IMG/VR virus record: IMGVR_UViG_3300042691_033065
Span: 1-64,000 of that record
Reading direction: 5' to 3' (one strand)
From: a virus
Length of the DNA: 64,000 nucleotides
Position 1 is the stretch's first letter. Each line of letters starts with the position of its first letter. Below the pieces are notes generated by a model, which saw only the letters and a list, made by a program, of their open reading frames with translations, searched no databases and had not been told where the DNA came from. Position numbers and translations under genes: made by a program. This document shows, piece by piece, positions 1-19,692 of the stretch.

Positions 1-60
1 TTGTTGGTGTTGCACTTCTTGTTGGAGTTCTTGTTGGTGTTGCACTTCTTGTTGGAGTTC
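1..60. repeat. 30-bp exact tandem repeat, two copies, in a Pro-Thr linker
   Basis: Bases 1-30 and 31-60 are identical, and a partial third copy follows. Each unit encodes ten linker residues (TPTRTPTRSA, in rotation). The repeat runs off the window, so the copy number is unknown. Confidence 0.9.
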
Positions 61-3000
61 TTGTTGGTGTCGGAGTTTTTGTTCTTGTTGGTGTTGGTGT
101 CTGTGTAGAAGGGATAAACTGAATATTAATACATTCAGGATTTTGAGCAACGTCATTTGGGGCACTACCTCCAAGAGCCGACTGAATTGTGGTATTGTAA
201 GGATTATTTAAATTAATTAAATAATAATTATTATATGTTTGATTATGTGGTAATAAATATAATTGGTTATTAACTACCGCGAAATTTATTCCGGAATTAA
301 ATAAAGATATAGATGAAACGTCTACCGCCAGTTCAAAAGTCCCATTAACATCATATTGGTGAATTTGCCATATGTTAGTATTAATTGTATTTTTAACCGC
401 AACTATGACTTTATTGGTTGTAGTATAAATCATGTCACCAAAAACCGTAAATGGTGATATTAAATCTATAATTTTAGTAGATGATAAAATTCCACCTGAA
501 ACATTTAATTTTGCAATAACATTCAATGCAGTTCCGGACCCAACAATAAAATTCTCATCATCGATTGCCGCCATACCATTGTCGATAACAGACGGCAAAT
601 TTGTCGGTAATGTATAGTTATTAGTCACCACCGCAGACCAAGGATTTTGGGTAATTGAGTATTCCCTTATTCTAGAACCACCTAATGCCGTAAAAAATCC
701 TAGTACCCAAACTTTATTAGACGTTCTCGCTAAAGCGTTGGTTCCTACAGTTCTACCAGAAACCGGCAAATACAAAAGACTTTCGTTTCTAATACTCATA
801 ATCTGCCAAAGACCATTAGTCGGACCAGAAGGTTCTTTTTTAACCGATAACAAATCACAAGAATTTATAGATATGTTAGGACAAAAACCATTTACACATG
901 AACCAACTTGGTTAACAAATGTTATTTGTGATGACCCACTATATCCGCTTAAATTTACACACAATTGTACAAATGAATTAGCCGATACCGTTGTAGAACT
1001 AACTGTTAAATTACAAGCAGTGTATATAAGAGTACCATTTACCGTATCACTTGTATTGTAAAAATTAAAACATTTACATGGTAAATTTGAGGTTATTGTT
1101 GGAGTTATACTTATGGTTGGGGTAATCGATGGAGTATTTGTTGCCGTTCTAGTTGGTGTTCTTGTTGGTGTCGCAGTTCTTGTCGGTGTTTGAGTCGCCG
1201 TTCTTGTTATTGTCGGTGTTTGAGTCGCCGTTCTTGTTATTGTTGGTGTTTGAGTCGCCGTTCTTGTTATTGTTGGTGTTTGAGTCGCCGTTCTTGTTGG
1301 TGTTGCCGTTATTGTCGGAGTAATCGTAGATGTTATTGTTGGTGTTGAAGTTTGAGTGGTAGTCGGCGTCGGAGTCCGTGTTTCTGTTGCACCTGAAGTT
1401 GGCGTTATCGTCATAGTCACGGTAGGTGTTGGAGTTTTAGTAGGTGTTGGAGTCGGTGTTTTTGTAACAGGTATAAACTCAACTGTGATACACTCTGGTG
1501 ATTGGGATTGGTCCGTCACAGTAACTGGTAAACTTTCAGAAAGTAAGGTTGCCGAATATGGTGAAGTTAAGTTTACCTGATAAATTTCTCCAGGAGTAGT
1601 AGCTCTTACAATATACAAATTATTAGAATTAATCAAAATAGACCATCCACTATTTGCATCTATTCCTGATGTGAATAATGGAACATCAACCTCAATGTTT
1701 CCAAGTATATCATATTGAGTAATAAATATTTTGACAGGGGTAGTTGTTTGGGTCATTATTATAATCTTACCAGTTTGAGTAAAAACTAAATCAGTTAATA
1801 TTCTTCTATTACTTGGTAAATCAAAAAGTTTCGTAAATACCGCGTTATTGGTTATGGTATCTGAAATATCAACATTAACCACACTTTGGGACCCTGCAGT
1901 AGCACCTGACACACTTAATAAATTAAAATTATCGATTGCAACTAAACCACATGCATTACTATTAGGTAATATAGTATTACTTTGTATGTTTATAGTTCTG
2001 CCATTATATGTTGCACTAAACGGTGAAAATGTTATATCCCATTCTCTTATACCTCCACTGGTGAAACCAAGATAAGTACCGTGAACCCAAAGTTTATTTG
2101 AAGTATTTGCAATTCCAAGCATTGACCATGGTCTATTTGGTATGGGTAAAAAAGTTGTGGTATTAGTTTGAAAATCATATGATTGAATGATGTTACCCGG
2201 CCCCCCAGCTAAAAAGGAAATACAACTATCCAAATTAATTGTTGGGCAACTTACTGTACAATCACCTAACTCATCTATAGCAGTAATTTGGGTCGTTGCG
2301 GTGTATAATGGATTTGTTGAATTACCTGAAACACATAATTGAACATATGAAGTGGCACTAACCGTTACAGAACTAAATACCCCATCACAATTATAATAAG
2401 TAACTGTTCCGGGTTGGTTATTTGATGTGTTGAAGAAATTATAACAAGTACAAGCAAACAGATTAGAAGTTTCGGTAGGTGTAGGAGTTTGAGTTGCAGT
2501 TTGTGTAACAGTTGCCGTTTGTGTTACTGTTGGGGTATTCGTTTGGGTTGCCGTTTGTGTTATTGTTGGAGTAATTGTTGATGTTCTTGTAACGGTAGGA
2601 GTAATCGTTGATGTTCTTGTAACGGTAGGAGTAATTGTGGCGGTTCTTGTAACGGTAGGAGTAATTGTGGAGGTACTTGTAATAGTAGGAGTTTGGGTGT
2701 TTGTTGGGGTTGAGGTTCTAGTTGGAGTTTGGGTTTGGGTTTGCGTTGATGTAGGCGTATTAGTTTTAGTGGTAGTAGGTGTTGGGGTAGGTGTTGGGGT
2801 TTGTGTTGGTGTTCGGGTAACTCCTATGAAATTAACATTTAAACAACTTAACGGTTGGGCAAACCCAACATTTGTTATTGTCATATTGTTTACTGTTAAA
2901 GATGTATAGGGGAAGTTCAAATCTCTTCTAACTACAGCGGGAGACGCCGATGAAGAGGCAACCGTAAATATTTGTGAATTATACATGAACAAACCAAATC

Positions 3001-6000
3001 CTTCAACAGAATTACCTATTTGGAATTCTAATTCCTGATTACCAAATAAATCAAACTGTGTTAAAAAAGACCCGGTACCCGCAACATTATTATAAGTTAA
3101 CGCAATAATATTACCTGTGTTTGTATAAGTTAAATCACCCCTTAGGACTCTATTTGTTGGTAAAGTAAATAACGGAGTTGCAACCCAAGTATTTGATGAA
3201 ATATTTAAACTCACTATCACATTACCAGCCGTACCTGAAGCCGTTATTAATGTGGTGTTATTTAAAACCGCTAAACCATTTCTTGTGGATTGATATAGTG
3301 TAGAACCCGATATAAATCTATTTAAACTTGATGTAAATGGGGATGTTGTTATAAAATATTCTTTTATACCATTTCCTAATGTTGCGAAATTACCATATAT
3401 CCATAAATAGTTATCATTTGTTGCAATATCGTATATAGAAACAGATTCGGTATTAATAGGTAATGGAATTTGTGTGTTAGTTATTGGGTCATAAGTATAA
3501 ATAATTCTATTTGTTCCATTCACTACAAATGGGTTACAAGCTTGTATGGTAGTTGTCGGACATCCATTTGTACAATCACCATTTAAGAATGATACTAAAG
3601 CCCCTGATGGGGTACCCGAGAAAATATTATTTTTAACACAAACTTGAGCACTATTTCCGTAATTTATTGTAATTTGGTTTTGTAAGCCTGTACAATCAAT
3701 AAAATCTACAGTCAAACTTTGTGAAGTTGATATGTTAAAGAATGTGTAGCAATTACAAGTATCAGGAGTACGTGTCAAAGTTGGTGTTACTGTTGTGGTA
3801 GGGGTGTTGGTTGATGTTTGTGTATTAGTCGGTGTTTGTGTTGAAGTTTGAGTTTGGGTTGGTGTTTGAGTGGATGTCTCAGTTGGTGTTTGAGTGGATG
3901 TCTCAGTTGGTGTTTGGGTTTGCGTTGGTGTTTGGGTTTGCGTTGGCGTTAATGTAGGAGTCGATGTAACTGTAGGTGTTGGTGTTGAGCTTGGACATGG
4001 GTAATTTGTCGAGCAACCACTACAACTTGTTTGAGCACTCAAGTTAACAAATAGGTAATTGTTTTGAGTGAATGTCTCTGCAATGTTTGTCGCACATCCA
4101 CTAAATCCTACGGACTCAATGTAATAAACCGTGCCTTCAGTTATTGAATTTGCGGTTAATCCAGGTATTTCGAAAATCTTAAAGGTTTCAAATGGGAAAC
4201 AACATCCACTAAACGTTCTAATTGCCGGCTTGTATTCAGTTATGGTTGGTGTCGGGGTTGATGTAACAGTTGGGGTTGATGTAACCGTACTTGTTTGAGT
4301 TGGTGTAACAGTAATTGTTGAAGTTGGTGTTTGAGTTTGGGTTGGAGTCTGTGTTACTGTAGAAGTTATTGTTGGTGTAGGTGTTGAAGTCTGTGTTATA
4401 GTTGGGGTTTGTGTTATTGTTGCAGTTGGGGTAGGGGTCGGGGTTGGAGTTGAGGTTGGTGTTGGTGACACAGGTACTATGTTATTGTCGAAACATCCGT
4501 TGGATTGGGATGCACCAAAATATGCGGCGTTGATTGTATTTGGAGGTAAAGGAACTGTAGGTGCCGCGGTAAGTGTGTACGGAGGATTTAGGTCTAAAGT
4601 ATATTGTGTACCATTCGCACTCAGAATATAGAAACCACCTCCATATTGATATAACCCATATGGGAATACAATTGTTGGGGATATTAATATATCAACATTG
4701 TTATCTACAGGGGGTGTTGCCGAAGTTATATAGTTATATTGTGTTATGTAAACACCAGTGGGTGCATTTGGGTTTGTTCCCGAAAAATTACTAACAATTA
4801 ACTTACCTGAATTTGTTAGAACATAATCACCTGAAACTCTTCTTCCTGGTAATAAAGAGAATTTTGTTGTAACTGTGTAAGGATTAGTCGAAACATCAAT
4901 CTCTAAAATTGAAGAAGGGGTCGCTCCATTATTAGCAATTAAAGTAGTGTCATTTATTGCAAATAATCCAGCACTAAATGCCGTTGAACCTGAAATTTCT
5001 CTGCTGAATGTCGCCGAGAACGGACATAATATTATATCATATTCATATAATGAAGTTCCTCTATTTAACCATATTTTGTTATTTGTATGTGCAATATCGA
5101 AGGAACCATCAGGACCATCAATACCTAAGTACAGTGGAGAGTTAGTGACTGAATTGTATATATAAACTCTACCGACATTGTCTAATAACAACACATCACA
5201 GCTAGATAAACATGGTGCCTGAGTTTTGGTTGGTGTTAATGTCCTTGTTGGCGTAACAGATTCAGTAATTGTCACAGTCGGTGTTAAAGTATTAGTTGGA
5301 GTTTCAGTCGGTGTTGGTGTTTGAGTTTGTGTAGCCGATTCCGTGATAGTAACAGTTGGTGTCGAGGTCTGAGTAACAGTTGGTGTCGAGGTCTGAGTAA
5401 CAGTTGGAGTTTGGGTAATTGTTTGGGTTGGAGTTTCAGTTGGGGTTGGGGTTTCGGTTTGAGTTGGAGTTGGCGTTGGTGTTGGACAATTTCCATCTAT
5501 ACATAGTCCTACAAGTTCGGCGGTACCTGAACCATAATCAATTATTTCTCTAACACAATAATTTCCAAAATTATTTGGTGCTATTGAAATCAAACTACCC
5601 AAACAATCTAAAAATACTAAATTTACTCCATCTCTAATGTCTGGCACATTTATAAAATAACAATTACAAGTATATTGAGTAACGGTTACTGTATTTGTTG
5701 GGGTTTGAGTTATTGTTGATGTCACAGTAGGTGTCAATGTTGGTGTTGGAGTTTGAGTGACACATACACATGATGGGTCAGACTCAGCATACCCGAATCC
5801 TGATATAACCTGAACATCATAGGAACAAGGAATGACCAATATTTCATTGTTATTCAAATTCAAAGTCGTAAGAGACCCTCCACAATTGTAAACATTGAAT
5901 TGTGTACCTCCTGACTGATAAATGTTATAAATTATACTCTGGAAGGTACTACCCAAATTAATTGTTAAAGTAGGGGTAAATGTTAATAAGTAGGCCGAAT

Positions 6001-9000
6001 TTATAGGGTTAAACGTAGCAGTTAAAATTGTAAAATATTGGGGCGATAGTGGAGGGCTAACACTGATTAGTTCCAAAACTTGACCAACTAAAGTACCAGG
6101 TGAGCCTACATTTGTAGGTATCAATGCAAAATCATCCCCTACCCTCAAAGGAGGTTTAATAACAAATCCATTATCGAGTAATTGACCTAAACCTCCATAT
6201 AGTGTCCATGAGGTACAACACAATGTTTGAGTAGGTGTTGATGTTATAGTGTTGGTTACACTTGGTGTTTGTGTTGATGTACTAGTCGGTGTTTCAGTAG
6301 TTGTCGTAGTTGGCGTTACGGTATTTGTAGGTGTTTCAGTAGTTGTAGGAGTCGGGGTCGGGGTACCAGTTCTTGTAGGAGTCGGAGTTCTAGTAGGACA
6401 AAGTATTGAGTTCTCACAAGACCCATTCTCAAGAAATGTTAAAGTACCTCCCACAGTTTGAAGTGACCCTTTAGCATAACATGCGGTAAATGTTACACCA
6501 GGACCTATTGGTATTCCTCCTGAAGGTCCACCATTACATAAAATTCCGTTATAACTACCAAAAAATTCACCTATATTGGTTATAGAATAACAAACACACT
6601 CAATAGGTGTTCTTGTTGGGGTTGACGTTTTTGTTGGTGTTACAGTTTGAGTTTGTGTCTGAGTTTGAGTTTGTGTCGAAGTTGGGCTTTCTGTAGGTGT
6701 TGATGTTACTGTTGAAGTTTGTGTCTGAGTTGGGGTTTCAGTTTGAGTTGGGGTTTCAGTTTGAGTTGGGGTCGAGGTAATCGTTGGAGTCGAGGTAATC
6801 GTTGGAGTAACTGTTGGTGTTGATGTTACAGTAGGTGTCGGGGTTGAGCTCGGGCATGGGTAGGATGCCGAACAACCGCTACAACTAGTTTGGGCACTAA
6901 TATTAACAAATAGATAATTATTTTGTGTGAATGTTTCGGCAATGTTTGTAGCACAACCGCTAAATACACCGGATTCAATGTAGTAAACTGTACCTTCAGT
7001 TATTGTGTTAGCGGTTAATCCAGGTATTTCATAAAGTTTAAAAATTTCAAATGGGAAACAACATCCACTAAATGTTCTTATAGCTGGCTTGTACTCGGTA
7101 ATTGATGGAGTTGGAGTTGATGTAACCGTTGGAGTTTGAGTTGATGTAGATGTTATCGTTGGGGTAGAGGTTACTGTATTTGTTGGAGTAGAGGTTACAG
7201 TATTTGTCGGTGTTTCAGTTTGAGTTGGGGTCGGTGTTGATGTGGATGTTTCTGTAACAGTGTTTGTTGGAGTTTGAGTTGGGGTTTGTGTGTTTGTTTC
7301 GGTAATTGTTGGGGTTTGTGTAGGAGTGTCAGTAATGGTTGGTGTGGGAGTCTCTGTCGGTGTTGGTGTTGGTGTTGAGGTGCCACAAAATCCTTCGCAA
7401 ACTCCGTTATTGAATACCGCAATAAATGGGTCTAAAACTAAACTTGATGACGCACATAAACTTACGGTGTCACCTTCAGAACCTGAAATTTGTAATGAGT
7501 ACTCAAAATTTATATTATTACAATCTTTACCACTTACATTTTGTTTGTCTAATAAACTGGTGTTTACAAATGTGTAACAAAAACAATCTAAAGTAGGTGT
7601 TGGTGTTGGGGTAGAAGTTTGTGTAGGTGTTTCAGTATTGGTTGGGGTTTGAGTCGGAGTTTCCGTTTGAGTCGGAGTTTCAGTTACCGTCATAGTAGGT
7701 GTTTCGGTAACGGTGACAGTAGGAGTTGGGGTTTGGGTAGGAGTTGGGGTTGGGGTTACTATGTTAAAATTTGTAGGTAAACACGATAACTCTTGGGATG
7801 TACCTTTAATAACCCCTGTAAAAGTTAATGGGTCTAAAGTTGTAGAAACTAACCCCCATGGAGAATCTAAAATTGCTTGATAAACAATACCTGAAGTATC
7901 CACAGCATAGATATTTCCACCAAATTCAAAGAATCCGGCAATAATTTGAGAAACTTGGAATAAAACTTCTTGTTCACCAGTTGAATAGTCATATTGTAAA
8001 ATATAGTTACTCAATCCTTGGAACATTGAAACTATGAATTTTCCGCCGGTTGTTAGAATAAAATCACCTCTTACCGAATAACCGGTTGGTAGTGAGAATT
8101 TAGGGGTTACTGTATTTGTTATATAGTTTAATTCTTGTACGTTTTCTTGACCAATTGCTTGTGTACTAGTTATAATTAATGTGGTATCATTTATTGCAAA
8201 TAAACCATCACCCAAGAAAAGTCTAGTTATTTCATCAATTAATGTAACACTCACAGGGCAAGTTGAAAAACTGTATCTTTGAATTCTATTTACGATAGTA
8301 ATGAATAACCTTGAGCTAGTGTTAGCAATATCTCTTACTGTTGCCTTGGGGTCAAAAATTACTGTAGACGTTTCTGTATTATAGTCATAAGAATAAATTA
8401 ATGATTCACTATCGACATATAAAACTGAACATCCGTCTATACAAACCGGAGTCGGAGTTACAGTCATTGTATTTGTTGGAGTTTGGGTTGTGGTTGGAGT
8501 TTGGGTTGTGGTAGGTGTTTGTGTACTTGTTGGAGTTTGGGTTGTGGTTGGTGTTTCTGTACTTGTTGGGGTTTGGGTTGTGGTAGTTGTTGGTGTTTGT
8601 GTTGCCGTACTTGTTGGTGTTTCAGTAATTGTTGGTGTCACGGTATTAGTAAGAGTTACTGTTGGTGTTGGACTTTGGGTAAGTGTAGGAGTTATAGTTT
8701 GAGTACTAGTTGGGGTTTGAGTACTAGTTGAGGTAATTGTGGGAGTTTGGGTTTCAGTTGGGGTAATTGTAGGTGTTAATGTATTTGTTGGGGTAATTGT
8801 AGGTGTTAATGTATTTGTTGGTGTTTGGGTGACTGTAGGAGTTGGGGTTGGGCTAGCACATTCTCCGTCAATACAAGGACCAAAATTACTAATTTGAGTT
8901 ACCCCTGAAAGAGTAGTAACTCCACTATTTTCTAAACAAACTTTAAATGGTCTTGCAGGTTCTATTAATTTTCTTACCGAAACCCCTTCACTACCACATT

Positions 9001-10474
9001 TAAAATAGTCAATAACCGCATTATTCCCAACCGCGGTTATTTCAAAACAGTCACAGGACACGGGTGTCTTAGTTGGGGTTGGGGTATTAGTTGGGGTATT
9101 AGTAATTGTTTCAGTTACAGTTACTGTTGGTGTTTGGGTCGTTGTAGGAGTTTGGGTTGGTGTTTGGGTTGGTGTTGGTGTTATTTGAGGTATGAAGTTT
9201 ACATCTAAACAATTTGGTAATTGAGAAGCCCCATACACCGAATATCCTGTATCACCTGTTAATGTAATTGTGTACGGATAATTTTTATCAATATGGAATA
9301 CATTATTAGTTTCGTTACCATCCATGATATAAATTTCACCATTATCTTGAAAAATGCCCCAAGGCTGGGTGATGGTTGGATTCAATTGAATATCGACTTC
9401 AGGGTCACCATTTAAGAAATTATATTGTGTTATGAATTGTCCGAATGGTGCCGCGGTCGCGTTAGTCGTAATAATAACCTTATTTGTTGTTGTTAAAATA
9501 ATATCTCCCGCAACACCTCTGTTTATCAACATCGGGAATAGAGTTGTAAATACCGCAGTATTTGTAGTAATATTTACCGAAACAACCTGTTTTGGATTAC
9601 CCCCGCTTTGGACCGCAATCAAGGTTGTGTTATTAATTGCCCCCAACCCAGGACCTATGCCTGATGGTAATGTAATTACACGATTAAATACCGCGGTAAA
9701 CGGACTCAAAGTAATATCCCATTCGTATATCTCACTGGCACTAGCCATCCACAACTTACTTGAAGTATGGGCAATATCATTTGTCGCGGAACCAACTGTG
9801 TCAGGAACTATAAGTTGTGTAGTAGTGTCCGTGTCAACATCATAGAAAAATACATTTTGTAATGAATTAAATATTACCGCACATTCGGGAACAGATGGAG
9901 GATTAGTTCCTGTTGGAGTAAGCGTTCTAGTTGGGGTTGATGTCTTGGTAATTGTTGGTGTTTGAGTTGATGTCTTGGTAATTGTTGGTGTTTGAGTCGT
10001 CGTTGGTGTTTGAGTAGGAGTTTTAGTTGATGTTTGAGTAGGTGTATAAGTAATTGTTGGTGTAACACTTGGCGTTCTTGTTATAGATGGAGTTGGGGCA
10101 CAACTGAAGACATACGTATAACCTGACTCAACACAATCAACACAGAATATTGTTGATGGGGTTGGAGTCATGGTCATTGTGGGGGTTATTGTCGGAGTTG
10201 GTGTTTTTGTGGGAGTTACAGTTTCAGTTGGAGTTATGGTAGGCGTTTTAGTTATTGTTGCGGTAGGGGTCGGTGTAGGTGCAAGTAAATTGAATTCACA
10301 GCAAACACTAAAGGCTGAAAAACAAACTACGTAAACCCCATATACATAATCGGCAACATAATTAAATGGTAAAAGTTGCACACCTACAGATACGGTGCCG
10401 CCGGTTTGGGGATTGAATGTTATATCCCCATATTGTCCCGCATAATTTACCGATTGTATTAGTGCTGTTGGCAT
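1..10474 (-). CDS. Giant Pro-Thr-rich modular tail-fibre/adhesin protein (C-terminus beyond the window)
   Basis: The frame starts with ATG at 10474 (MPTALIQSVN) and stays open to base 1: at least 3,491 codons. I read most of it and found one continuous frame. A ~65-residue head domain is followed by globular modules joined by TPT/TPTPTVT linkers. Six propeller-like modules of ~240 residues lie at about 9895-9185, 8445-7765, 5210-4480, 3550-2825, 2250-1475 and 870-105; they share motifs such as ANTSSKLW, EWDITLSPF, NTTLI, GDLVYT and FITQYD. EYKP-type Cys modules lie at 7105-6850 and 4245-3987. CxCY-type modules lie near 9060, 7596, 6603, 5673, 3765, 2455 and 1087. A distinct CCTSW module is at 6222-5765. 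No enzyme motif was recognised. By position after baseplate genes and by composition it is probably a long tail fibre or adhesin that displays binding modules on stiff linkers. The function is inference; the architecture is seen. A non-phage reading (bacterial surface adhesin) is unlikely given the neighbours. Confidence 0.85.
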   Translation of the reverse strand, partial: MPTALIQSVNYAGQYGDITFNPQTGGTVSVGVQLLPFNYVADYVYGVYVVCFSAFSVCCEFNLLAPTPTPTATITKTPTITPTETVTPTKTPTPTITPTMTMTPTPSTIFCVDCVESGYTYVFSCAPTPSITRTPSVTPTITYTPTQTSTKTPTQTPTTTQTPTITKTSTQTPTITKTSTPTRTLTPTGTNPPSVPECAVIFNSLQNVFFYDVDTDTTTQLIVPDTVGSATNDIAHTSSKLWMASASEIYEWDITLSPFTAVFNRVITLPSGIGPGLGAINNTTLIAVQSGGNPKQVVSVNITTNTAVFTTLFPMLINRGVAGDIILTTTNKVIITTNATAAPFGQFITQYNFLNGDPEVDIQLNPTITQPWGIFQDNGEIYIMDGNETNNVFHIDKNYPYTITLTGDTGYSVYGASQLPNCLDVNFIPQITPTPTQTPTQTPTTTQTPTVTVTETITNTPTNTPTPTKTPVSCDCFEITAVGNNAVIDYFKCGSEGVSVRKLIEPARPFKVCLENSGVTTLSGVTQISNFGPCIDGECASPTPTPTVTQTPTNTLTPTITPTNTLTPTITPTETQTPTITSTSTQTPTSTQTITPTLTQSPTPTVTLTNTVTPTITETPTSTATQTPTTTTTQTPTSTETPTTTQTPTSTQTPTTTQTPTTTQTPTNTMTVTPTPVCIDGCSVLYVDSESLIYSYDYNTETSTVIFDPKATVRDIANTSSRLFITIVNRIQRYSFSTCPVSVTLIDEITRLFLGDGLFAINDTTLIITSTQAIGQENVQELNYITNTVTPKFSLPTGYSVRGDFILTTGGKFIVSMFQGLSNYILQYDYSTGEQEVLFQVSQIIAGFFEFGGNIYAVDTSGIVYQAILDSPWGLVSTTLDPLTFTGVIKGTSQELSCLPTNFNIVTPTPTPTQTPTPTVTVTETPTMTVTETPTQTETPTQTPTNTETPTQTSTPTPTPTLDCFCYTFVNTSLLDKQNVSGKDCNNINFEYSLQISGSEGDTVSLCASSSLVLDPFIAVFNNGVCEGFCGTSTPTPTPTETPTPTITDTPTQTPTITETNTQTPTQTPTNTVTETSTSTPTPTQTETPTNTVTSTPTNTVTSTPTITSTSTQTPTVTSTPTPSITEYKPAIRTFSGCCFPFEIFKLYEIPGLTANTITEGTVYYIESGVFSGCATNIAETFTQNNYLFVNISAQTSCSGCSASYPCPSSTPTPTVTSTPTVTPTITSTPTITSTPTQTETPTQTETPTQTQTSTVTSTPTESPTSTQTQTQTQTQTVTPTKTSTPTRTPIECVCYSITNIGEFFGSYNGILCNGGPSGGIPIGPGVTFTACYAKGSLQTVGGTLTFLENGSCENSILCPTRTPTPTRTGTPTPTPTTTETPTNTVTPTTTTTETPTSTSTQTPSVTNTITSTPTQTLCCTSWTLYGGLGQLLDNGFVIKPPLRVGDDFALIPTNVGSPGTLVGQVLELISVSPPLSPQYFTILTATFNPINSAYLLTFTPTLTINLGSTFQSIIYNIYQSGGTQFNVYNCGGSLTTLNLNNNEILVIPCSYDVQVISGFGYAESDPSCVCVTQTPTPTLTPTVTSTITQTPTNTVTVTQYTCNCYFINVPDIRDGVNLVFLDCLGSLISIAPNNFGNYCVREIIDYGSGTAELVGLCIDGNCPTPTPTPTQTETPTPTETPTQTITQTPTVTQTSTPTVTQTSTPTVTITESATQTQTPTPTETPTNTLTPTVTITESVTPTRTLTPTKTQAPCLSSCDVLLLDNVGRVYIYNSVTNSPLYLGIDGPDGSFDIAHTNNKIWLNRGTSLYEYDIILCPFSATFSREISGSTAFSAGLFAINDTTLIANNGATPSSILEIDVSTNPYTVTTKFSLLPGRRVSGDYVLTNSGKLIVSNFSGTNPNAPTGVYITQYNYITSATPPVDNNVDILISPTIVFPYGLYQYGGGFYILSANGTQYTLDLNPPYTLTAAPTVPLPPNTINAAYFGASQSNGCFDNNIVPVSPTPTSTPTPTPTPTATITQTPTITQTSTPTPTITSTVTQTPTQTQTPTSTITVTPTQTSTVTSTPTVTSTPTPTITEYKPAIRTFSGCCFPFETFKIFEIPGLTANSITEGTVYYIESVGFSGCATNIAETFTQNNYLFVNLSAQTSCSGCSTNYPCPSSTPTPTVTSTPTLTPTQTQTPTQTQTPTETSTQTPTETSTQTPTQTQTSTQTPTNTQTSTNTPTTTVTPTLTRTPDTCNCYTFFNISTSQSLTVDFIDCTGLQNQITINYGNSAQVCVKNNIFSGTPSGALVSFLNGDCTNGCPTTTIQACNPFVVNGTNRIIYTYDPITNTQIPLPINTESVSIYDIATNDNYLWIYGNFATLGNGIKEYFITTSPFTSSLNRFISGSTLYQSTRNGLAVLNNTTLITASGTAGNVIVSLNISSNTWVATPLFTLPTNRVLRGDLTYTNTGNIIALTYNNVAGTGSFLTQFDLFGNQELEFQIGNSVEGFGLFMYNSQIFTVASSSASPAVVRRDLNFPYTSLTVNNMTITNVGFAQPLSCLNVNFIGVTRTPTQTPTPTPTPTTTKTNTPTSTQTQTQTPTRTSTPTNTQTPTITSTSTITPTVTRTATITPTVTRTSTITPTVTRTSTITPTITQTATQTNTPTVTQTATVTQTATQTPTPTETSNLFACTCYNFFNTSNNQPGTVTYYNCDGVFSSVTVSATSYVQLCVSGNSTNPLYTATTQITAIDELGDCTVSCPTINLDSCISFLAGGPGNIIQSYDFQTNTTTFLPIPNRPWSMLGIANTSNKLWVHGTYLGFTSGGIREWDITFSPFSATYNGRTINIQSNTILPNSNACGLVAIDNFNLLSVSGATAGSQSVVNVDISDTITNNAVFTKLFDLPSNRRILTDLVFTQTGKIIIMTQTTTPVKIFITQYDILGNIEVDVPLFTSGIDANSGWSILINSNNLYIVRATTPGEIYQVNLTSPYSATLLSESLPVTVTDQSQSPECITVEFIPVTKTPTPTPTKTPTPTVTMTITPTSGATETRTPTPTTTQTSTPTITSTITPTITATPTRTATQTPTITRTATQTPTITRTATQTPTITRTATQTPTRTATPTRTPTRTATNTPSITPTISITPTITSNLPCKCFNFYNTSDTVNGTLIYTACNLTVSSTTVSANSFVQLCVNLSGYSGSSQITFVNQVGSCVNGFCPNISINSCDLLSVKKEPSGPTNGLWQIMSIRNESLLYLPVSGRTVGTNALARTSNKVWVLGFFTALGGSRIREYSITQNPWSAVVTNNYTLPTNLPSVIDNGMAAIDDENFIVGSGTALNVIAKLNVSGGILSSTKIIDLISPFTVFGDMIYTTTNKVIVAVKNTINTNIWQIHQYDVNGTFELAVDVSSISLFNSGINFAVVNNQLYLLPHNQTYNNYYLINLNNPYNTTIQSALGGSAPNDVAQNPECINIQFIPSTQTPTPTRTKTPTPTRTPTRSATPTRTPTRSATPT
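1171..1290. repeat. 30-bp tandem repeat, about four copies
   Basis: Units at 1201-1230, 1231-1260 and 1261-1290 differ by at most one base from the next; a partial unit lies at 1171-1200. Each encodes TPTITRTATQ in some rotation within the giant fibre gene. Confidence 0.9.
2581..2700. repeat. 30-bp tandem repeat, four copies with decay
   Basis: Four units from 2581 to 2700 diverge gradually in the leftward-to-rightward direction. They encode TPTVTRTSTI-type decapeptides in the giant fibre gene. Confidence 0.85.
3859..3942. repeat. 24-bp x2 then 18-bp x2 tandem repeats
   Basis: 3859-3882 and 3883-3906 are identical 24-bp units (TPTETSTQ); 3907-3924 and 3925-3942 are identical 18-bp units (TPTQTQ). 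Both lengths are multiples of 6. Confidence 0.85.
3987..4245 (-). repeat. EYKP Cys module, copy B (giant fibre)
   Basis: Same module as copy A, with protein differences at only a few sites (for example FEIPGL against YEIPGL). It was probably duplicated within the gene more recently than the copies in the neighbouring gene. Confidence 0.85.
5348..5395. repeat. 24-bp exact tandem repeat, two copies
   Basis: 5348-5371 and 5372-5395 are identical and encode TPTVTQTS in rotation; a third partial copy follows. Confidence 0.85.
6850..7105 (-). repeat. EYKP Cys module, copy A (giant fibre)
   Basis: An ~85-residue module: [53 protein letters not shown]. The DNA is closely similar (roughly four in five bases by eye) to copy B at 3987-4245, with mostly synonymous changes. 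Confidence 0.85.
8761..8820. repeat. 30-bp exact tandem repeat, two copies
   Basis: 8761-8790 and 8791-8820 are identical and encode TPTNTLTPTI in rotation in the giant fibre linker. Confidence 0.9.
9937..9996. repeat. 30-bp exact tandem repeat, two copies
   Basis: 9937-9966 and 9967-9996 are identical and encode QTPTITKTST in rotation. Confidence 0.85.
10075..10165 (-). repeat. [15 protein letters not shown] module, copy in the giant fibre
   Basis: This module and its flanks encode the same residues as 11870-11950 in the neighbouring gene, except one Arg/Lys change; DNA differences are mostly at third codon positions. Confidence 0.85.
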
Positions 10475-10487
10475 CCCTTTATATATA

Positions 10488-13400
10488 TCAACATCCCGGT
10501 GTTACGATACCCAAAGAATTAAGTGTGGAGATTATCAAATTATAATAATAAGTCGAAGTATCTCCATCGTTTATACCTAATTGGTAGTTTAAATTGGTCA
10601 AGTAATAATCACTTAAGTTGTTAGGTGGTGAATATATTCCCGCATTTACAAAAGTTGTTTGTACCAAGTCTTGGAAGGTAGGTTGTCCCTCATTTATTAC
10701 CGCAAATACAACACCTCTTAATCCATAATCAATTGAAGATAAGAGGTTTCTCAAAGTTGTAACGTCAGTCCCATAATCCGGGTCTAATACAGTTGTAGGC
10801 GTAAAAGTTCCACCTGTAACATACGCTCCACCACTCTCGTCTTGGAAAACCAAATTGATTACTAAATCAACGCTAGTATCAACTGCTCTTCCAGCATTTC
10901 TCGAAGTTGCTAAACACGCAACAAATCTTTCATTTACATTACCTAATGGGCCAGTTTGCATTGTGAAGAATTGAACTCTCTCATTATATAACGTAATATC
11001 ATTGTTATAAACACCTATCAAACAAGTTTCAAGTATTCCACCAGGTGCAATCATTTGCTCCAAAGGAGCTCGTGTAGACCCCATAGAGCCTGAATCATCA
11101 TACCAAATATTAATTTCAGTATTTGAACTAATTGATTCGGTATTCACCAAAGTAACAATCAAATCACAAGTTGGCGCCGGAGTTTTAGTTGGGGTAGGTG
11201 TTAAAGTTGGGGTGTTAGTAGGGCTAGATGTTTGAGTTTGTGTCGGTGTTGGGGTTTGTGTTGGAGTTTCTGTTTGTGTAGGGGTTTGCGTAGGGGTTGG
11301 TGTCGGACATGGATTTGAGAACGTACATTCATCACAATCAGTTTGGGCCGTCACACCAACAAACAAATAATTATTTGGTGTAAATACTTCGGCAATACTT
11401 GTTGCACAACCACTGAACACACCTGTCTCAATATAGTAAATATTACCTTCAACAATGGTTGTGGCTGTCAATCCAGGTATCTCATAAACTCTGAATACTA
11501 TATGTGGAGAACAACATGCACTAAAGTGTCTGAATGATGGCTTATATTCAGTAATTGATGGGGTTGGTGTTTGTGTAGTAGTAGGTGTTTGAGTATTCGT
11601 TGGTGTTTGTGTAGAAGTACTAGTAACTGTTACAGTTGGTGTTTGTGTACTAGTCACCGTTGCGGTCGGTGTTTCAGTTGGTGTTGGTGTCTGTGTTGTA
11701 GTGTTAGTAACAGTTGTTGTGTTTGTAGGTGTCGAAGTTTTAGTTATTGTTACAGTTACAGTATTAGTTTGAGTTGGGGTAGGTGTTTTTGTTGGGGTAC
11801 TTGTATTGGTTGGGGTGACTGTCGGTGTGTAGGTTATCGTTGGGGTAACACTTGGCGTTTTAGTGATAGAAGGTGTTGGAGCACAACTGAATACATATGT
11901 GTAACCTGATTCAACACAGTCAACACAGAATATTGTTGAAGGCGTAACGGTAATAGTATTAGTTGGTGTGACTGTTGGTGTTTGTGTTGAAGTTGAGGTT
12001 ATGGTTGGTGTTTGTGTTGTCGTTGGTGTTGGGGTAGGTGTGGGTGTTTCTGTTGTTGTAGGTGTAGATGTTGTAGTGTTGGTTGGCGTAGGCGTAGATG
12101 TCTCTGTTGATGTTGGGGTCGATGTGTTGGTAACTGTACTGGTTTGAGTTGGAGTATTAGTTGTTGTATTTGTTTGAGTAGGAGTACTTGTTATCGTTTC
12201 AGTAACAGTCACTGTCTGTGTAACTGTTTGAGTTTGAGTATTAGTAACCGTGTTTGTTGGAGTACTAGTGATTGTACTTGTTTGTGTTTGAGTTACTGTT
12301 GGGGTATTTGTTTCGGTTGGCGTTTGAGTTGTAGTTGGTGTTTGAGTTGGTGTTTGAGTTGGAGTTTCGGTTGGTGTCGGAGTAGGTGTAGATGTTGGAC
12401 AAGGATTTGAATCTATACAATCTTGGCAAGTGAATTGATTAGTAATATTCAAATACAAGTATTGTAAATCCGTTAGAGTTTGAGCTATATTAGTCGCGCA
12501 TCCCTTGAACTGTGGTGATTCAATATAATAAACATCTCCTTCAATTATGGTTTGACCTATTTCACCAGGAACTTCATATAATTGAATGATTTGTCCTGGT
12601 TGACAACAACCACTAAACCATAAGTTTAGAGGTTTAAATTCAGTTTTAGTTGGAGTGACTGTTATAGTCGGAGTTGGGGTAACGGTATTTGTTGGGGTCT
12701 CTGTACTAGTCGGAGTTTCAGTAGTGGTCGGAGTTGGTGTTACCGTATTTGTTGGGGTCTCGGTGGTGGTAGGTGTTGGTGTCGGAGTAGGACATGAATT
12801 GTCGATACATGAACCAAAATTAGTTACTATTACACCAGATGTTATTGTATATTCTTCATTTATAATACAATCCTTAACCGTAGACCCTCCAGGTACGAAT
12901 AAATTAGTAACTGAAGTTCCATCACATTTATTATAAGATATAACAGCTCCACCCGCAGCGGCGAAAAACTCAATACAATTACAATTAATTGGTGTTTTGG
13001 TTGGCGTTGGTGTTTTAGTTTCAGTTACGGTTACAGTATTAGTAGGTGTTGATGTGTTAGTATTAGTAGGTGTTGATGTGTTAGTATTAGTTGGCGTTGG
13101 TGTTTGAGTTTCAGTAACAGTTGCGGTAGGTGTCTGTGTTGGTGTATTAGTAGATGCGACAGTTTGAGTTGTTGTTGGGGTCACTGTTAATGTACTCGTA
13201 CTGGTCGGAGTATTAGTATTGGTAGATGTCGGAGTAGATGTTTCAGTAGGAGTTGATGTGATTGTTGGGGTATTTGTTGGGCTTTCAGTTATTGTGGGGG
13301 TATTCGTTGGGCTTTCTGTGATTGTAACAGTTTGAGTTTGTGTTTGAGTCACTGTAGGGGTATTAGTAACTGTTTCTGTAGGAGTTTGAGTTTGTGTTTG

Positions 13401-14933
13401 AGTTGATGTTGATGTTACGGTACTAGTTGGACTCAGAGTCTGTGTGACAGTATTGGTCGGGGTTTCAGTAACTGTTGGTGTTGATGTTAAAGTATTAGTG
13501 GGTGTTTGGGTCACTGTTGGAGTAACGGTAGGTGTTTGGGTCGAGGTTGGCGTTTCTGTTGGGAAACCTGAAACAGTTAGTGATGGTGTTACAGTTGGTG
13601 TTACTGTGGGTGTTGGGCTATTACTTGGAGTTCTTGATGGGAATGGACTTGGTGTTGCGGTCGGTGTTTGCGTTGATGTTGATGTTGTAGTGGGTGTTTG
13701 TGTTTGAGTTAATGTATTTGTAGGGGTTATCGTCGCAGTACCTGTTGGGGTGGCGGTTGGTGTTTTAGTAGAAGTAGGGGTTGGTGGAACACATGAAGAA
13801 GCCTCAGTACAATTGGTATTATCAGTGGTATAAAAACTTTGGATTATATCATTTCTATTATTATAAGACTCATCGTTATTAGAATATGTTATATAAACAT
13901 CTATTCCGAATGAGTTAATAGAAGATTGAACATTGTTACATATAACAGTTATACCAGGAGAAGATATAGTAAGTCTTTGTAGTACCCCTTTACAATCTAT
14001 GTATAGAATATTTACAACACCATCAAATGAGGGATTGGTATTGTTTATAGCATTTGCTAAATCAATTGCCGAAATATTAACAAAATAACAAAAACAACCA
14101 TTATTAGTTACTGTAGGGGTTGGAGTTGGTGTTGGGGTGCTACTTGGCAAAACACAATCCCCGCTTTGTGAACAAGTTGAATAATCTGTAAAAAACGTAC
14201 TAGAGAATGATAATGGTGTGAATACATTACTATAACTAAAATTATTTTGACTGTAATTCAATAGTACCGGAATACTAAACCCATCTATAGTTTCCGATGG
14301 ATTGTTACAGATATAATAAATTCCACTTCCAGTAATTGCAGAGGTTATAATACCCTCGGAACAATCATAATACACTAAATTAACAACACCATTTGCAGTT
14401 GTTTCAGTATTACCGCTAGCTCTATTGATATCTAACTGGGTAATATCAACAAAGTAACAAAAACAACCATTATTCGTAGGTGTTGGGGTTAAGGTTGGTG
14501 TTACCGTATTAGTTGGTGTCTCCGTATTAGTTATTGTTGGAGTTTGTGTATTGGTTGGAGTTTGTGTGAGTGTTTCAGTAACCGTCGGGGTAATAGTTGG
14601 GGTAATACTAATAGTTGGGGTGATTGTAGGTGTTTCAGTAATAGTTGGGGTGATTGTAGGGGTAATCGTTGGTGTTATCGATATTGTAGGGGTTGGGGTG
14701 GTTATAATACTACATAAAACAGTTTCTAATCTTTCACATCCGTCCGCGGTTATTATTTTAACACCAACCGCCGCCGAGTCTTGGAAAACTATAGGGACAT
14801 TAAGTGTAATAATCGGGGGAACAAAGTTATTTACTATAGCAACTTCGACACAATTATCGCCGTAAATATCACATATGTATATTATGAATGGAGGATTAAC
14901 ACCCGATATGTTAAATAAACTTATAGTATCCAT
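10488..14933 (-). CDS. Pro-Thr-rich modular fibre protein with C-terminal VWA/MIDAS-like domain
   Basis: 1,481 residues. The first ~75 residues form a small domain (PPFIIYICD, later GCERLETV) that resembles the whole 71-residue protein encoded at 17272-17487. Long Thr/Pro linkers follow, interrupted by CFCYF modules (about 14480-14150 and 14110-13790), a CNCIEF module (~12990-12790), two EYKP/EFKP Cys modules (12650-12395 and 11560-11302), and a short [15 protein letters not shown] module that is almost identical to one in the downstream gene. The last ~220 residues are not repetitive. They contain a hydrophobic strand followed by DDSGSMGST, which fits the DxSxS metal-binding (MIDAS) motif of von Willebrand A domains. 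I infer a fibre whose tip carries a VWA-like adhesion domain. The start has no Shine-Dalgarno site; a TTATTTATA element lies 22 bases upstream. The stop is 13 bases before the next start, so the genes are probably co-transcribed. Confidence 0.85.
11302..11560 (-). repeat. EYKP-type Cys module, copy D (1,481-residue fibre)
   Basis: [51 protein letters not shown]. It is closer to copies A and B than to copy C, which suggests exchange between genes. Confidence 0.8.
11870..11950 (-). repeat. [15 protein letters not shown] module, copy in the 1,481-residue fibre
   Basis: The partner of the copy at 10075-10165, about 1.8 kb away in the adjacent gene and in the same orientation, so unequal recombination between the two would fuse the genes and keep the frame of the module. 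Confidence 0.85.
12395..12650 (-). repeat. EYKP-type Cys module, copy C (1,481-residue fibre)
   Basis: A diverged copy: [44 protein letters not shown]. The Cys pattern is kept while surface residues differ. Confidence 0.8.
13035..13082. repeat. 24-bp exact tandem repeat, two copies
   Basis: 13035-13058 and 13059-13082 match exactly and encode NTSTPTNT in rotation in the 1,481-residue fibre gene. Confidence 0.85.
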
Positions 14934-14955
14934 CTTTAACTACCAAACGTTTTCT

Positions 14956-14964
14956 TATAAATAA
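14956..14964 (-). promoter_or_regulatory. TTATTTATA motif before the 1,481-residue fibre gene
   Basis: Minus strand TTATTTATA, 22 bases from the ATG at 14933, in a 63-base AT-rich gap between two fibre genes. Confidence 0.4.
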
Positions 14965-14996
14965 TTAATTAATCGTTTTATGTTGGTTTATTTGTT

Positions 14997-17270
14997 CTAA
15001 TAACATATCGAACATGAGTAATTACTTATTATTCCTCCACCAAAAGATATCATAGTCGGAGTTATTGCACCTCCTGATGATGAAAGGGCTTTGATGTATT
15101 GGAAAGGAGGTATGGGTGTTGTACAGGTTGAGTTTATGTACAACTGAGAACCAGGTATTAAAAAGTCGCTCGGAGAATACATAGTCGTATTGGCAGGTAG
15201 TGGGTATAACGCAGAAACAGCCGGATGGTAACATATATTACATGGTCCTGTTGATACTATAACCGTATGGGGTTTACACGCTTGTATTGGTGCCGATTGT
15301 GGTGCTTTAGTAGGTGTTGGAGTTCTTGTAGGCGTTAAACTAGGTGGTGGTGGTTGGGGTGGGGCCGTTTGTGTATTGGATGAGCACTTACTACAGTCGG
15401 TATATAAAACATTATTGATTATCGAAAATGCGTTTGTAGTATATGTGATTGTATTATAATTAGGGTTAGATGTATTACAAACAGATGTTACACTAACTAG
15501 CTCCCAACAAGTATTCGCGAATTGTCCCGCATTACCTACTTTGAATACAGTACCTATTGATTGATTTGAGATTGCCGGCATTGGTTGACAAACTCTTGTG
15601 TAAGTACCACATCTTTCATACGTATAATATAATACTTGTTTAGAAGGGGTAACGGTTGGGCTTTGTGATGGTGCCGGTGGTGCTGGTTTATTAGATGACG
15701 AAGTTAATGTAATTGTTGGGGTTATTGATGGTGTTGGTGTTGGGGTCGGGGTAAGTATTCCTAAACAATTAGTACATTCACCTAAATTAGAATACCCTAT
15801 CAAATTAGAGATAAGAGTAACATTACTACTTCCTATAATGTTTTGGTTTATACCGACGAAAGAAACACACTTTCTTATTCCGTCAATATTCGCCTGATAA
15901 ATCATAAACTTTTCTAAAGTGCCACCTTCAGGCCTTGAGAGTGAATTAGTTGTGTAATATGTTAATCCATTGTAACAATCTTGAAATTCTAAACTTACCG
16001 GACAGTCTATAACAGAATTTATAGTATTAAAGGTAACGTCACCCAAAAATCCACATCCTCGGGTAATCGTTTCAGGTAATGTAGGAGTTTGGGTCGGTGT
16101 TGGTGTTTGTGTTGGAGTGTAAGACGAAATTGAGGCATTAACCGATAATGGGCAGAATACTGTTGCGGTGGGAGTTTGAGTTGGTGTTGGGGAACATGGA
16201 GGTATAATTGTAAAACATGAAATGGTACAGGGGTCAAAAGTATATCCTACAGGACATGTATATCCACTGGCCAGATATTGACCTGATAAATTCTGCACTA
16301 TAGTCGCCTCTGTTTGGCCAGCGGATGTGAATATTATATCCAAATCAGAAACTTGGGTTGCTCCGGTCAATTCATCAATAGTGTTGTTATAAATTTCGCA
16401 ACCAAACGCACCGGAAGCCCCATTATTTAATCCAAATAATTCAACAACATGGTCTCCTGCAGTTAATGTTATTGGATATACATGCCAAAAAATAAAGGCA
16501 AATGTATCACCATCATAAGGTCCGCTTATTGTATTTACAATAGTTTGACCATCAATAGAGATTCTAAAATTATTGTCCCCCGCTAATCCAACCCAATAAG
16601 TTTTAGTTTCAGAAACATTTATACAAACAGTAAATCCTAACCAAGTGTCGTAAGGTCTATCATTAGGTTGATTGGTCCACAATCCAGTTCTATTTAATGG
16701 CCCATCAGTAGAATCAATTCTTTTCCACACCGGTTGAGTTGTAGAAACCGCCAAATATATATTACCGGGACTAGTACCATTAAAATTAAAAGGGCTATGG
16801 AATATTGTACCTTGATTAGTATAAACAATATCAGTATCAGGTTCAAATTCAATTGTTGAAGTTGGTGAAGTCGCAGAAATTGTTATTTTATCACCACATT
16901 GAGGTGTAGGTGGTGGTGTGGGTGATGGTACATCGCAATTGAATATAGCATCAAAATCAATTATATTACAAGGGTTAACAGGTGGTGGGGGTTCTGGTGG
17001 GGGACAAGTTCCGTTGGTAAAATAATCATCACAAAAATCAGGACAAGTTCTGTAACATGACTTACCGCTCAAAAAACATTGTCCATCAATATAATCAGAA
17101 AGACACCATCCGTTATCACTTAAAAAAATTACATATCCGTTTGTATTACCTATATAATAGTAGTTACCATTATAACTTCCTGACCTAGTATAGGTGTCGT
17201 CCCATTGTGGAAATCCTGTATCATAGACGCATAGGGTTGTATATGCACAAGGTGTTGTTGGTGCTGCCAT
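14997..17270 (-). CDS. Cys- and Pro-rich modular fibre protein with a PA14-like segment
   Basis: 757 residues. The N-terminal ~100 residues are rich in Cys, Tyr and Gly, followed by PPPEPPPP-type linkers. Residues ~222-290 (TYWVGLAGDNNFRISIDGQ, then W, then AGDHVVELFG) resemble a PA14/GLEYA-type carbohydrate-binding beta-sandwich, in which a strand ending IDG is followed by an AGxH strand; this is a pattern judgement, not a search result. TPTPTQTPT and TPTRTPTPT linkers then join further Cys-containing modules, and the protein ends SNYSCSICY. The ATG is one base after the stop of the 71-residue gene upstream, which indicates translational coupling. The Pro-Thr linkers are shorter than in the two downstream genes. 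It is most likely part of the same tail-fibre apparatus. The exact role is unknown. Confidence 0.8.
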   Translation of the reverse strand: MAAPTTPCAYTTLCVYDTGFPQWDDTYTRSGSYNGNYYYIGNTNGYVIFLSDNGWCLSDYIDGQCFLSGKSCYRTCPDFCDDYFTNGTCPPPEPPPPVNPCNIIDFDAIFNCDVPSPTPPPTPQCGDKITISATSPTSTIEFEPDTDIVYTNQGTIFHSPFNFNGTSPGNIYLAVSTTQPVWKRIDSTDGPLNRTGLWTNQPNDRPYDTWLGFTVCINVSETKTYWVGLAGDNNFRISIDGQTIVNTISGPYDGDTFAFIFWHVYPITLTAGDHVVELFGLNNGASGAFGCEIYNNTIDELTGATQVSDLDIIFTSAGQTEATIVQNLSGQYLASGYTCPVGYTFDPCTISCFTIIPPCSPTPTQTPTATVFCPLSVNASISSYTPTQTPTPTQTPTLPETITRGCGFLGDVTFNTINSVIDCPVSLEFQDCYNGLTYYTTNSLSRPEGGTLEKFMIYQANIDGIRKCVSFVGINQNIIGSSNVTLISNLIGYSNLGECTNCLGILTPTPTPTPSITPTITLTSSSNKPAPPAPSQSPTVTPSKQVLYYTYERCGTYTRVCQPMPAISNQSIGTVFKVGNAGQFANTCWELVSVTSVCNTSNPNYNTITYTTNAFSIINNVLYTDCSKCSSNTQTAPPQPPPPSLTPTRTPTPTKAPQSAPIQACKPHTVIVSTGPCNICYHPAVSALYPLPANTTMYSPSDFLIPGSQLYINSTCTTPIPPFQYIKALSSSGGAITPTMISFGGGIISNYSCSICY

Positions 17271-17271
17271 G

Positions 17272-17487
17272 TTATAAATTCAATGTTTGAAACGTTTCAC
17301 AACCACCATTTGTTGTTATTTTTAAGTTAAAAGAAACTTGACCATTGAATATATCAGGAATTGCGAAACTATAAGGTGCCGAGGTGATTGTATCGATAAA
17401 CACACAAGATGTTGTTGGGTTATCACATAAATAAATATTAAATGGACTTTGACCTGATAATTCGTTGATAATAACTTCAGTTGGCAT
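17272..17487 (-). CDS. Small fibre-associated protein, stand-alone copy of a fibre N-terminal domain
   Basis: 71 residues, Met at 17487. The sequence has the spacing G-x-x-PF-x-IY-x-CD near residues 12-22 and KITTNGGCETFQT near the end. The first ~75 residues of the 1,481-residue fibre protein show the same order (PPFIIYICD, then [13 protein letters not shown]), so the two are paralogous domains. It is the first gene of the leftward fibre cluster, and its stop is one base before the next start. It may be a small capping, attachment or chaperone-like partner that mimics the fibre attachment domain. This is inferred only from the shared domain and position. An ATATTTATG element lies 17 bases upstream of the start. 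Confidence 0.75.
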   Translation of the reverse strand: MPTEVIINELSGQSPFNIYLCDNPTTSCVFIDTITSAPYSFAIPDIFNGQVSFNLKITTNGGCETFQTLNL

Positions 17488-17573
17488 TATGAATTTTTTA
17501 TATTCATAAATATAATAGGTTGATAAAACTTGTGAAGGTTGATTGTATCTAATTTATCCCTTATTTTTACCTG
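17488..17573. promoter_or_regulatory. Divergent intergenic region between the fibre cluster and the plus-strand block
   Basis: 86 bases of very AT-rich DNA separate the ATG at 17487 (minus) from the ATG at 17574 (plus). It is the only divergent start-start junction in the window, so it must hold or receive promoters for both directions. The minus side has ATATTTATG (17505-17513), the motif seen before many other starts. I see no clear bacterial -35/-7 pair for the plus side. Confidence 0.5.
17505..17513 (-). promoter_or_regulatory. ATATTTATG motif before the fibre cluster
   Basis: Minus strand ATATTTATG, 17 bases from the ATG at 17487, in the divergent gap. It would be the entry point for transcription of the leftward fibre cluster. 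Confidence 0.45.
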
Positions 17574-18476
17574 ATGTCAGATGAAAAAGAAATATTGGTT
17601 GAATTATTGAGAGAAATCCTTGGTGATGAGAGACATCACTACGAACACCGAGGACAAATCTCCTTTAATTGCCCCGTATGTGACGAAGAGAGAAACAAAG
17701 GTAACCTCGAAATCAATTACTTACAACACGTATATAAATGTTGGAGTTGTGCTGAAACCAATAGTACCCACGGCTCACTCGGTAAACTTATTGACATCTA
17801 CGGAAACAAGAAACATAAGAAGGTCTACAAACTTTTTCAACCTGAGGACACCAAACCAAAGGAAAAACCAAAACAAAAGTTAAGATTGCCTGAAAGTTTT
17901 GTTATGTTTAAAGATTCTAACCCAATCTATCCTGTATATAAACAAGCGTATAATTACCTGAAAACTAGAGGAATAACTGACGAGATTATCGAAAGGTATT
18001 CAATAGGGTTCTGTGATAACGGTAGTCATGCCGGTAGGGTTATCGTACCTTCATATGATATTGAGGGTGAGTTGAATTATTATATTGCAAGAAGTTGGGA
18101 CCCAAAGTCGAGAGCCAAATACAAAAATCCCCAAGCCGAGAAGGATAAGATAATCTTCAATCAACACCTAATAGATTGGAAAAAGGATATCTATCTTGTT
18201 GAGGGCGTGTTCGATGGATTTTTCTTACCTAACAGTATTCCGATGCTTGGAAAGCACATGAGTGAGTTGTTGTTTAACACTCTATATGATAAGGTTAAAA
18301 AGAATATTATAATCGCTTTGGATGGTGACGCCTATGATAACGCGGTTAAATTATACCGTGAGCTTAATGGTGGTAAATTGTACGGAAAAATAAAAATTGT
18401 TCATCTACCTAAAGATAAAGACGTGTGTGATTTGAAGGGTCAGATAGATGAATATTATGTTCAAATTAAAGATTAA
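17574..18476 (+). CDS. DNA primase, zinc finger plus TOPRIM (T4 gp61-like)
   Basis: 300 residues. It synthesises RNA primers for lagging-strand replication and would work with the DnaB/gp41-type helicase encoded at 48949-50331. A CPVC...CWSC zinc ribbon lies at about residues 32-61. The TOPRIM core shows YLVEGVFDG (catalytic Glu, ~206-214) and IIALDGDAYD (the DxD pair, ~248-257). Length and domain order fit phage primases of the gp61/DnaG type without a helicase-interaction domain. It is the first gene of the plus-strand block, and the next ATG follows directly after its stop. It lies far from the other replication genes, which are on the opposite strand around 45-53 kb. Confidence 0.9.
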   Translation: MSDEKEILVELLREILGDERHHYEHRGQISFNCPVCDEERNKGNLEINYLQHVYKCWSCAETNSTHGSLGKLIDIYGNKKHKKVYKLFQPEDTKPKEKPKQKLRLPESFVMFKDSNPIYPVYKQAYNYLKTRGITDEIIERYSIGFCDNGSHAGRVIVPSYDIEGELNYYIARSWDPKSRAKYKNPQAEKDKIIFNQHLIDWKKDIYLVEGVFDGFFLPNSIPMLGKHMSELLFNTLYDKVKKNIIIALDGDAYDNAVKLYRELNGGKLYGKIKIVHLPKDKDVCDLKGQIDEYYVQIKD

Positions 18477-19674: not shown

Positions 19675-19692
19675 CACTAAAAACTAAAAACT

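Follow-up and report, generated by a model that had tools for sequence, protein, structure and literature searches.

A giant gene of an uncultured, predicted T4-like jumbo phage encodes a chain of beta-propeller-like modules on (X-Thr)n linkers, a probable adhesion appendage

The stretch of DNA analysed here (the window) comprises bases 1-64000 of a virus record of 121,000 bases, which is classed as linear. Its left end is occupied by a giant gene on the minus strand (2-10474), for which an ORF scan of the window gave an ATG start at 10474, 3,491 codons and no stop; because the window begins at base 1 of the record, the gene runs off the record end. Two further contigs, G002 (322,372 bases) and G003 (84,769 bases), are 100% identical to bases 1-2000 of the window, agree with each other for 12.7 kb beyond its edge, and complete the gene to a stop, yielding 3,782 codons and adding a seventh propeller module, B7. 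The first-pass annotation, made from the window, had described a single frame that runs from 10474 to base 1 and leaves the window, encoding a protein of at least 3,491 residues; the extension bears this out, with the stop reached on G002 and G003 and none inside 1-10474. The gene is also complete to its stop in contig G001, where the last linker is 20 residues shorter than in G002, a difference that represents a length change between strains in units of 30 bases. In G001 (locus L021) the gene starts in another frame than in the window, with about 25 fewer residues ahead of the first linker, which may be an assembly error.

The complete protein comprises a 63-residue N-terminal domain common to other linker proteins, seven propeller modules, seven modules with six cysteines (six-Cys modules) and two copies of an 80-residue Cys-rich module (KP..CC). 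All coordinates in this paragraph refer to the minus strand and follow the direction of translation. The N-terminal domain (10286-10474, delimited by segmentation and a profile) is followed by propeller B1 (9194-9883), six-Cys module c1 (8858-9055), the longest linker, of 138 residues (8444-8857), propeller B2 (7766-8431), c2 (7385-7585), the first KP..CC copy (6854-7093), c3 (6407-6598 by profile match, the domain extending slightly further), c4 (5486-5668), propeller B3 (4478-5200) and the second KP..CC copy (3995-4234), which is 89% identical to the first. The remaining three propellers of the window are each set directly onto a six-Cys domain, predicted to be a disulfide-rich beta domain: c5 (3560-3757) immediately precedes B4 (2828-3538), c6 (2246-2452) precedes B5 (1475-2224), and c7 (881-1078) precedes B6 (116-859). 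B7 lies outside the window, in locus L018. The propellers were delimited by module alignment, supplemented by AlphaFold2 models for B1 and for B4 with c5. This segmentation agrees with the alternation of modules with Thr/Pro linkers and small Cys modules described earlier; the count of six propellers given then is right for the window and one short for the full gene, and the signatures quoted at that time are approximate, exact occurrences numbering none for ANTSSKLW (six in a loose form), one for WDITLSPF, two for NTTLI and one for FITQYD. The adjoining gene (10488-14933) encodes a 1,481-aa linker protein with two KP..CC modules, six-Cys modules and a 224-residue C-terminal domain. One more propeller module (26385-27110) is found within an ORF (25800-29288) that also has SprB repeats. 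The C-terminal domain of the 1,481-aa protein (10491-11174) shows a DxSGS motif as in VWA domains and may be VWA-like, although Pfam gave no match and the PDB a single weak one, to laccase (E 0.041). An Rfam scan of 1-20000 gave no match.

The linkers amount to 1,163 residues of the full protein and consist of 48% Thr and 18% Pro; 93% of their threonines have another threonine two residues on, i.e. the linkers follow the pattern (X-Thr)n. At the DNA level, every one of the 66 tandem-repeat rows found in 1-15000 has a period of 6 bases or a multiple of it, so that slippage would preserve both the reading frame and the alternation of X and Thr. A match to the protein family phrog_15511 (9.7e-05) comes from a linker alone and was discarded as low-complexity; the same family does not match the KP..CC module, a six-Cys module or the N-terminal domain.

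Modules B1-B6 are homologous, with about 240 residues each and pairwise identities of 24-40%. They match the family profile by construction, and B7, which is not among the profile sequences, matches it with E 1.9e-54; a search of the examined loci, redundant ones included, gave 175 matches in 75 frames. The AlphaFold2 model of B1, made with 48 non-redundant modules, is all-beta (pLDDT 96.5, pTM 0.92), and its Foldseek search returned 542 PDB chains at E<=1e-3, the best 50 of these 542 being mainly propellers. This agrees with the propeller-like modules suspected earlier, and the modelled module is ordered and homologous to the others. Aligned with LRP6 by VIA-align, the B1 model gave Z 14.7 and an rmsd of 3.8 over 197 residues, while comparison of the module profile with PDB sequences gave weak matches, the best being designed Kelch-type propellers (2e-05). 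B4 and its six-Cys domain were modelled as a single unit of 310 residues (pLDDT 92.5, pTM 0.91), which suggests a rigid head; the best matches of this model include apyrase, GH43 and olfactomedin entries, which are five-bladed, beside six-bladed ones, and none of the best-ranked matches covers the six-Cys domain well. According to the models, the module has a beta-propeller fold, a ring of four-stranded antiparallel blades that is closed by strands from both ends. The 20 strands of B1 can be arranged into four blades of four strands and one composed of the first three strands plus the last, and self-comparison of the profile, over 230 residues, revealed repeats spaced by about 46. High-ranking structural matches include five-bladed as well as six-bladed entries, and five blades are likely, judged by strand order and internal repeats rather than by a count on coordinates.

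The modules share the propeller fold with the six-bladed YWTD, Kelch, NHL and Pizza proteins (Z up to 14.7), but differ from them in the likely number of blades and in having no Pfam propeller family over the cut-off. Among the nine modules scanned against Pfam, Kelch_6 gave matches below the cut-off (E 0.13 and 0.031) and no NHL or YWTD rows appeared. With five blades more likely, the NHL-type fold suggested in the first-pass annotation was not upheld, while its statement that no named family could be assigned was. None of 48 propellers matched a PHROGs family, and none of 50,697 phage records was matched by tblastn with B1, the next gene or a 677-residue stretch containing B4. By structure, a viral relative is A0A7S9SU35 of Virus NIOZ-UU157, an uncharacterised protein and the best viral-model match of module B1 in Foldseek (E 7e-16, TM 0.84 by query, 25% identity). 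In one scan of bacterial and archaeal genomes, none of 74 pattern matches was confirmed as a propeller relative. The propeller family, the six-Cys domain and the N-terminal domain are absent from the libraries scanned.

The N-terminal domain is not confined to the giant gene. A profile built from four N-terminal sequences identified it, as a domain of about 57 residues, in 60 ORFs from 46 loci (redundant ones included); in 59 of these ORFs the match begins no more than 60 residues after the preceding stop. Linkers are present in 49 of the ORFs. This phage has three copies, in the giant gene, at 85185-88061 of the record and at 165.5-167.8 kb of G002. Among related phages, ORFs with this domain directly precede the portal gene in 8 of 72 loci and the gene for a PF11397 enzyme (discussed below) in 3 of 76. 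Such a distribution is as expected of an attachment domain, through which the proteins would dock. Against annotated phages, tblastn with the domain gave one match (E 0.8), taken as chance. In portal loci such as L240, L249, L258 and L263, ORFs located between terminase and portal begin with an N-terminus of the RKKSG..GS type and carry Thr/Pro linkers; these are possible head appendages of the related phages.

Comparison with a distant phage (L025) provided evidence on the history of the modules. When the full protein was divided into 16 domain pieces, 15 had a match in L025 (36-92% identity; 36-67% for the propellers). Their order is kept with one exception, the second KP..CC copy being most similar to the first copy of L025. 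One Cys module has no match, its slot in L025 being occupied by a propeller; a 166-residue piece of the giant protein has one counterpart in L025 (50% identity), and the L025 counterpart of B7 is truncated by the contig end. Linker lengths differ throughout. In a tree of 46 rows, in which the bootstrap had not settled and 23 of 39 inner branches are open, each of B1-B6 groups, with starred support, with its positional equivalent from L025, which argues against recent tandem duplication. Because order and pairing by position are shared with L025, the modules appear to be old paralogues that have been kept apart as distinct heads. The same comparison bears on the suspicion that the giant length is an artefact of assembly or frame, raised by the abundance of tandem repeats in the linkers and by the deviation of G001 at the gene start and in a single linker: we give it almost no weight, as contigs from other metagenomes support the same frame and the module order recurs in so distant a phage. 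The B1 sequence itself was found with 100% identity in three other IMG/VR contigs.

Variation within the family is unevenly distributed. Across the 48 modules, loops of one face have a mean entropy of 3.01 bits (54 positions) and those of the other 1.93 bits (37 positions; p 2e-10), where the faces were assigned by strand order and propeller convention, alignment positions are non-independent, only family modules are compared, and gaps and loop misalignment inflate the value for the variable face. The signal may be due in part to tight turns and poorly aligned loops.

The phage itself is, by its sequence matches, a T4-like jumbo phage: G002 encodes a portal (PF07230, 2e-77) and a terminase (PF03237, 6e-14), a sheath homologue was found in this phage, and Baseplate_J and baseplate-wedge matches lie at 42556-44394 of the window. 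An ORF considered as a terminase (L009:18272-19999) was reassigned, since Pfam gives DNA polymerase B. By portal sequence, the nearest annotated records are Microcystis phage Mel-JY01 (40.9%), Flavobacterium phage immuto (38.6%) and the uncultured phage LR756508 (38.5%). The Flavobacterium relative and the SprB repeats, present in two genes of the window, suggest that the host probably belongs to Bacteroidota; the Microcystis record counts against certainty. Neither of the cultured T4-like relatives, immuto and Mel-JY01, has a propeller in its whole record. Linker ORFs, the six-Cys domain and the N-terminal domain were likewise absent from the portions searched for them, 150 of 160 kb and 100 of 190 kb, respectively. 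Elsewhere in the record of our phage, a linker protein at 88094-92335 (L010:4094-8335) combines a metallopeptidase domain of reprolysin-like type (PF13688, 1e-12) with a propeller module at its C-terminus, and it is followed by another giant ORF, some 3,700 codons long, at 92409-103526 (L010:8409-19526), with five matches to the propeller family and six to the six-Cys modules.

We consider it probable that the giant gene encodes one very long adhesion appendage of bead-on-a-string type. Its N-terminus would dock on the virion and the linkers would serve as extended spacers; a fully extended chain measures 0.31 nm per residue, so the linkers could span about 0.36 micrometre in all. Each propeller would turn its variable face to a ligand of its own, probably a glycan or protein on the Bacteroidota surface, many simultaneous contacts would keep the phage at the cell, and the linker repeats would permit the spacers to change in length with the frame kept. 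Of the earlier description as a tail fibre, the fibre-like layout stands and the binding is presumed, while the assignment to the tail is weakened by the portal-adjacent ORFs of related phages that share the N-terminal domain; the appendage may sit on the tail or on the head or neck. No virion protein family matches the giant gene in Pfam, PHROGs and related searches, and inspection of the protein, without modelling, revealed no trimer-forming stem typical of tail fibres.

It is rather unlikely that the protein, as a fibre of the head or neck, attaches to matrix, mucus or particles in the water instead of being a receptor-binder that acts on the host in infection. The portal-adjacent ORFs with the N-terminal domain would suit such a role, as would the linker ORFs found directly upstream of the portal in 26 of 72 loci, but in this phage the portal is encoded at 113.8-115.6 kb of G002, and none of the three genes with the N-terminal domain (at 165.5-167.8 kb of G002, and at 85-88 and 2-10 kb of the record) is adjacent to it; gene order in any case does not decide the place on the virion. 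That the protein is secreted by or displayed on the infected cell, and is not part of the virion, we regard as improbable: the searches yielded no homologue among proven virion proteins and such modules would suit any surface adhesin, but the gene lies in a phage region with baseplate matches and its N-terminal domain is common to several phage genes.

The phage fibres known in most detail are, for the most part, rigid trimers that carry a single type of binding tip. If the adhesion appendage proposed here is real, multi-receptor or step-wise adhesion would be encoded by one gene, and it would become directly testable how giant phages locate their hosts and stay attached to them. The use of a propeller for receptor binding is already known from Gp45 of phage phi11, of which a five-bladed propeller is the proposed receptor-binding part (PMC4901313). 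The likeness is structural: the DALI matches of Gp45 to unrelated propellers (Z about 15-16, rmsd 3.1-4.0) resemble those of our modules, but Gp45 forms trimers with a helical stem in which each chain bears one propeller (PMC4901313), whereas the giant protein carries seven propellers per chain on (X-Thr)n linkers. Among the titles and abstracts listed in searches of open-licence PMC texts, none concerned a comparable fibre. A single (X-Thr)n chain that bears seven distinct heads and begins with a shared N-terminal domain is new as far as our searches reach.

The composition of the linkers raises the question of their modification. A GlcNAc-transferase of family PF11397 is encoded at 110532-111779 of the record (E 1e-70; 239 bits, cut-off 21), within a cluster of putative sugar-transfer genes (record 104002-112715, L011:2-8715) that also includes a TylF-type methyltransferase, HtrL_YibB and a weak Glyco_transf_25 match, and adjoins glycine-rich fibre-like genes. 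The PF11397 gene directly follows a glycine-rich gene, 7 kb from the nearest linker gene. The family was found in 7 of 25 propeller records, and all 7 have linker-rich propeller ORFs; three of them belong to this phage and two scarcely differ from each other, and absence from the fragmentary records means little. We collected 80 enzyme loci from 110 relatives and compared them with loci of DNA polymerase and portal. A linker ORF is present in 49 of 80 enzyme loci and in 55 of 80 polymerase loci. Directly upstream on the same strand, one is found in 28 of the 76 enzyme loci that have at least 600 bases upstream (18/60 after dereplication), in none of 79 polymerase loci, and in the 26 of 72 portal loci mentioned above (9/19 dereplicated). 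The order of linker ORF followed by enzyme is real, yet not special to the PF11397 enzyme. Long linkers (at least 100 residues) occur in 33 of 62 enzyme, 16 of 59 polymerase and none of 24 portal loci of at least 15 kb, or in 40, 17 and 11 of 80, respectively, when loci of all lengths are counted; the loci are not independent. As polymerase loci also hold linker ORFs and portal loci have them directly upstream, we do not accept the co-occurrence as proof of linker modification, and the case for this enzyme modifying the linkers is suggestive only. In three loci (L092, L094 and L114, 1-9945), frames of 3,315 residues, truncated where the locus begins and containing 1,319-1,512 residues of linker, lie directly upstream of a PF11397 gene.

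The chances appear evenly balanced that the linkers are bare spacers and that the enzyme targets a host surface sugar or another phage product. Its distance from the nearest linker gene, its place among the TylF-type methyltransferase and other putative transferases, the 31 of 80 enzyme loci with no linker ORF and the equal frequency of upstream linker ORFs in portal loci fit that reading, while the contrast with polymerase in upstream linker ORFs and the coincidence of enzyme and linker-rich propeller ORFs in all seven records, several of which are one phage, speak against it. The most speculative step of our proposal, possible but with the balance leaning against it, is that phage glycosyltransferases would decorate the linker threonines, stiffening and protecting the spacers. 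GlcNAc can also be attached through hydroxyproline, as in Skp1; the prolyl hydroxylase family PF13640, the one family sought for this route, was found in none of the 25 fragmentary records. Linkers and PF11397 nevertheless offer a testable case of phage-encoded linker glycosylation. In mycobacteriophages, as described in the accounts cited, phage-encoded glycosyltransferases have virion proteins as targets (PMC11256854, PMC12619734), the same pairing of phage enzyme and virion target as proposed here; the targets named there are the C-termini of capsid and tail-tube proteins, whereas here the fibre linkers are targets by proposal only (PMC11256854, PMC12619734).

A broader and somewhat unlikely extension of this proposal is that an uncultured lineage of jumbo phages makes a mucin-like coat of appendages. 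These would have an anchor domain in common, (X-Thr)n spacers that are glycosylated by the phage and change length in steps of 6 bases, and heads that can be exchanged (propellers, six-Cys domains and the metallopeptidase); one particle would then bear many binding specificities at once. Apart from these genes, we observed in the minus-strand region of the window a small plus-strand island (17574-20259) with a DnaG-type N-terminal match (PF08275) and an SLT transglycosylase.
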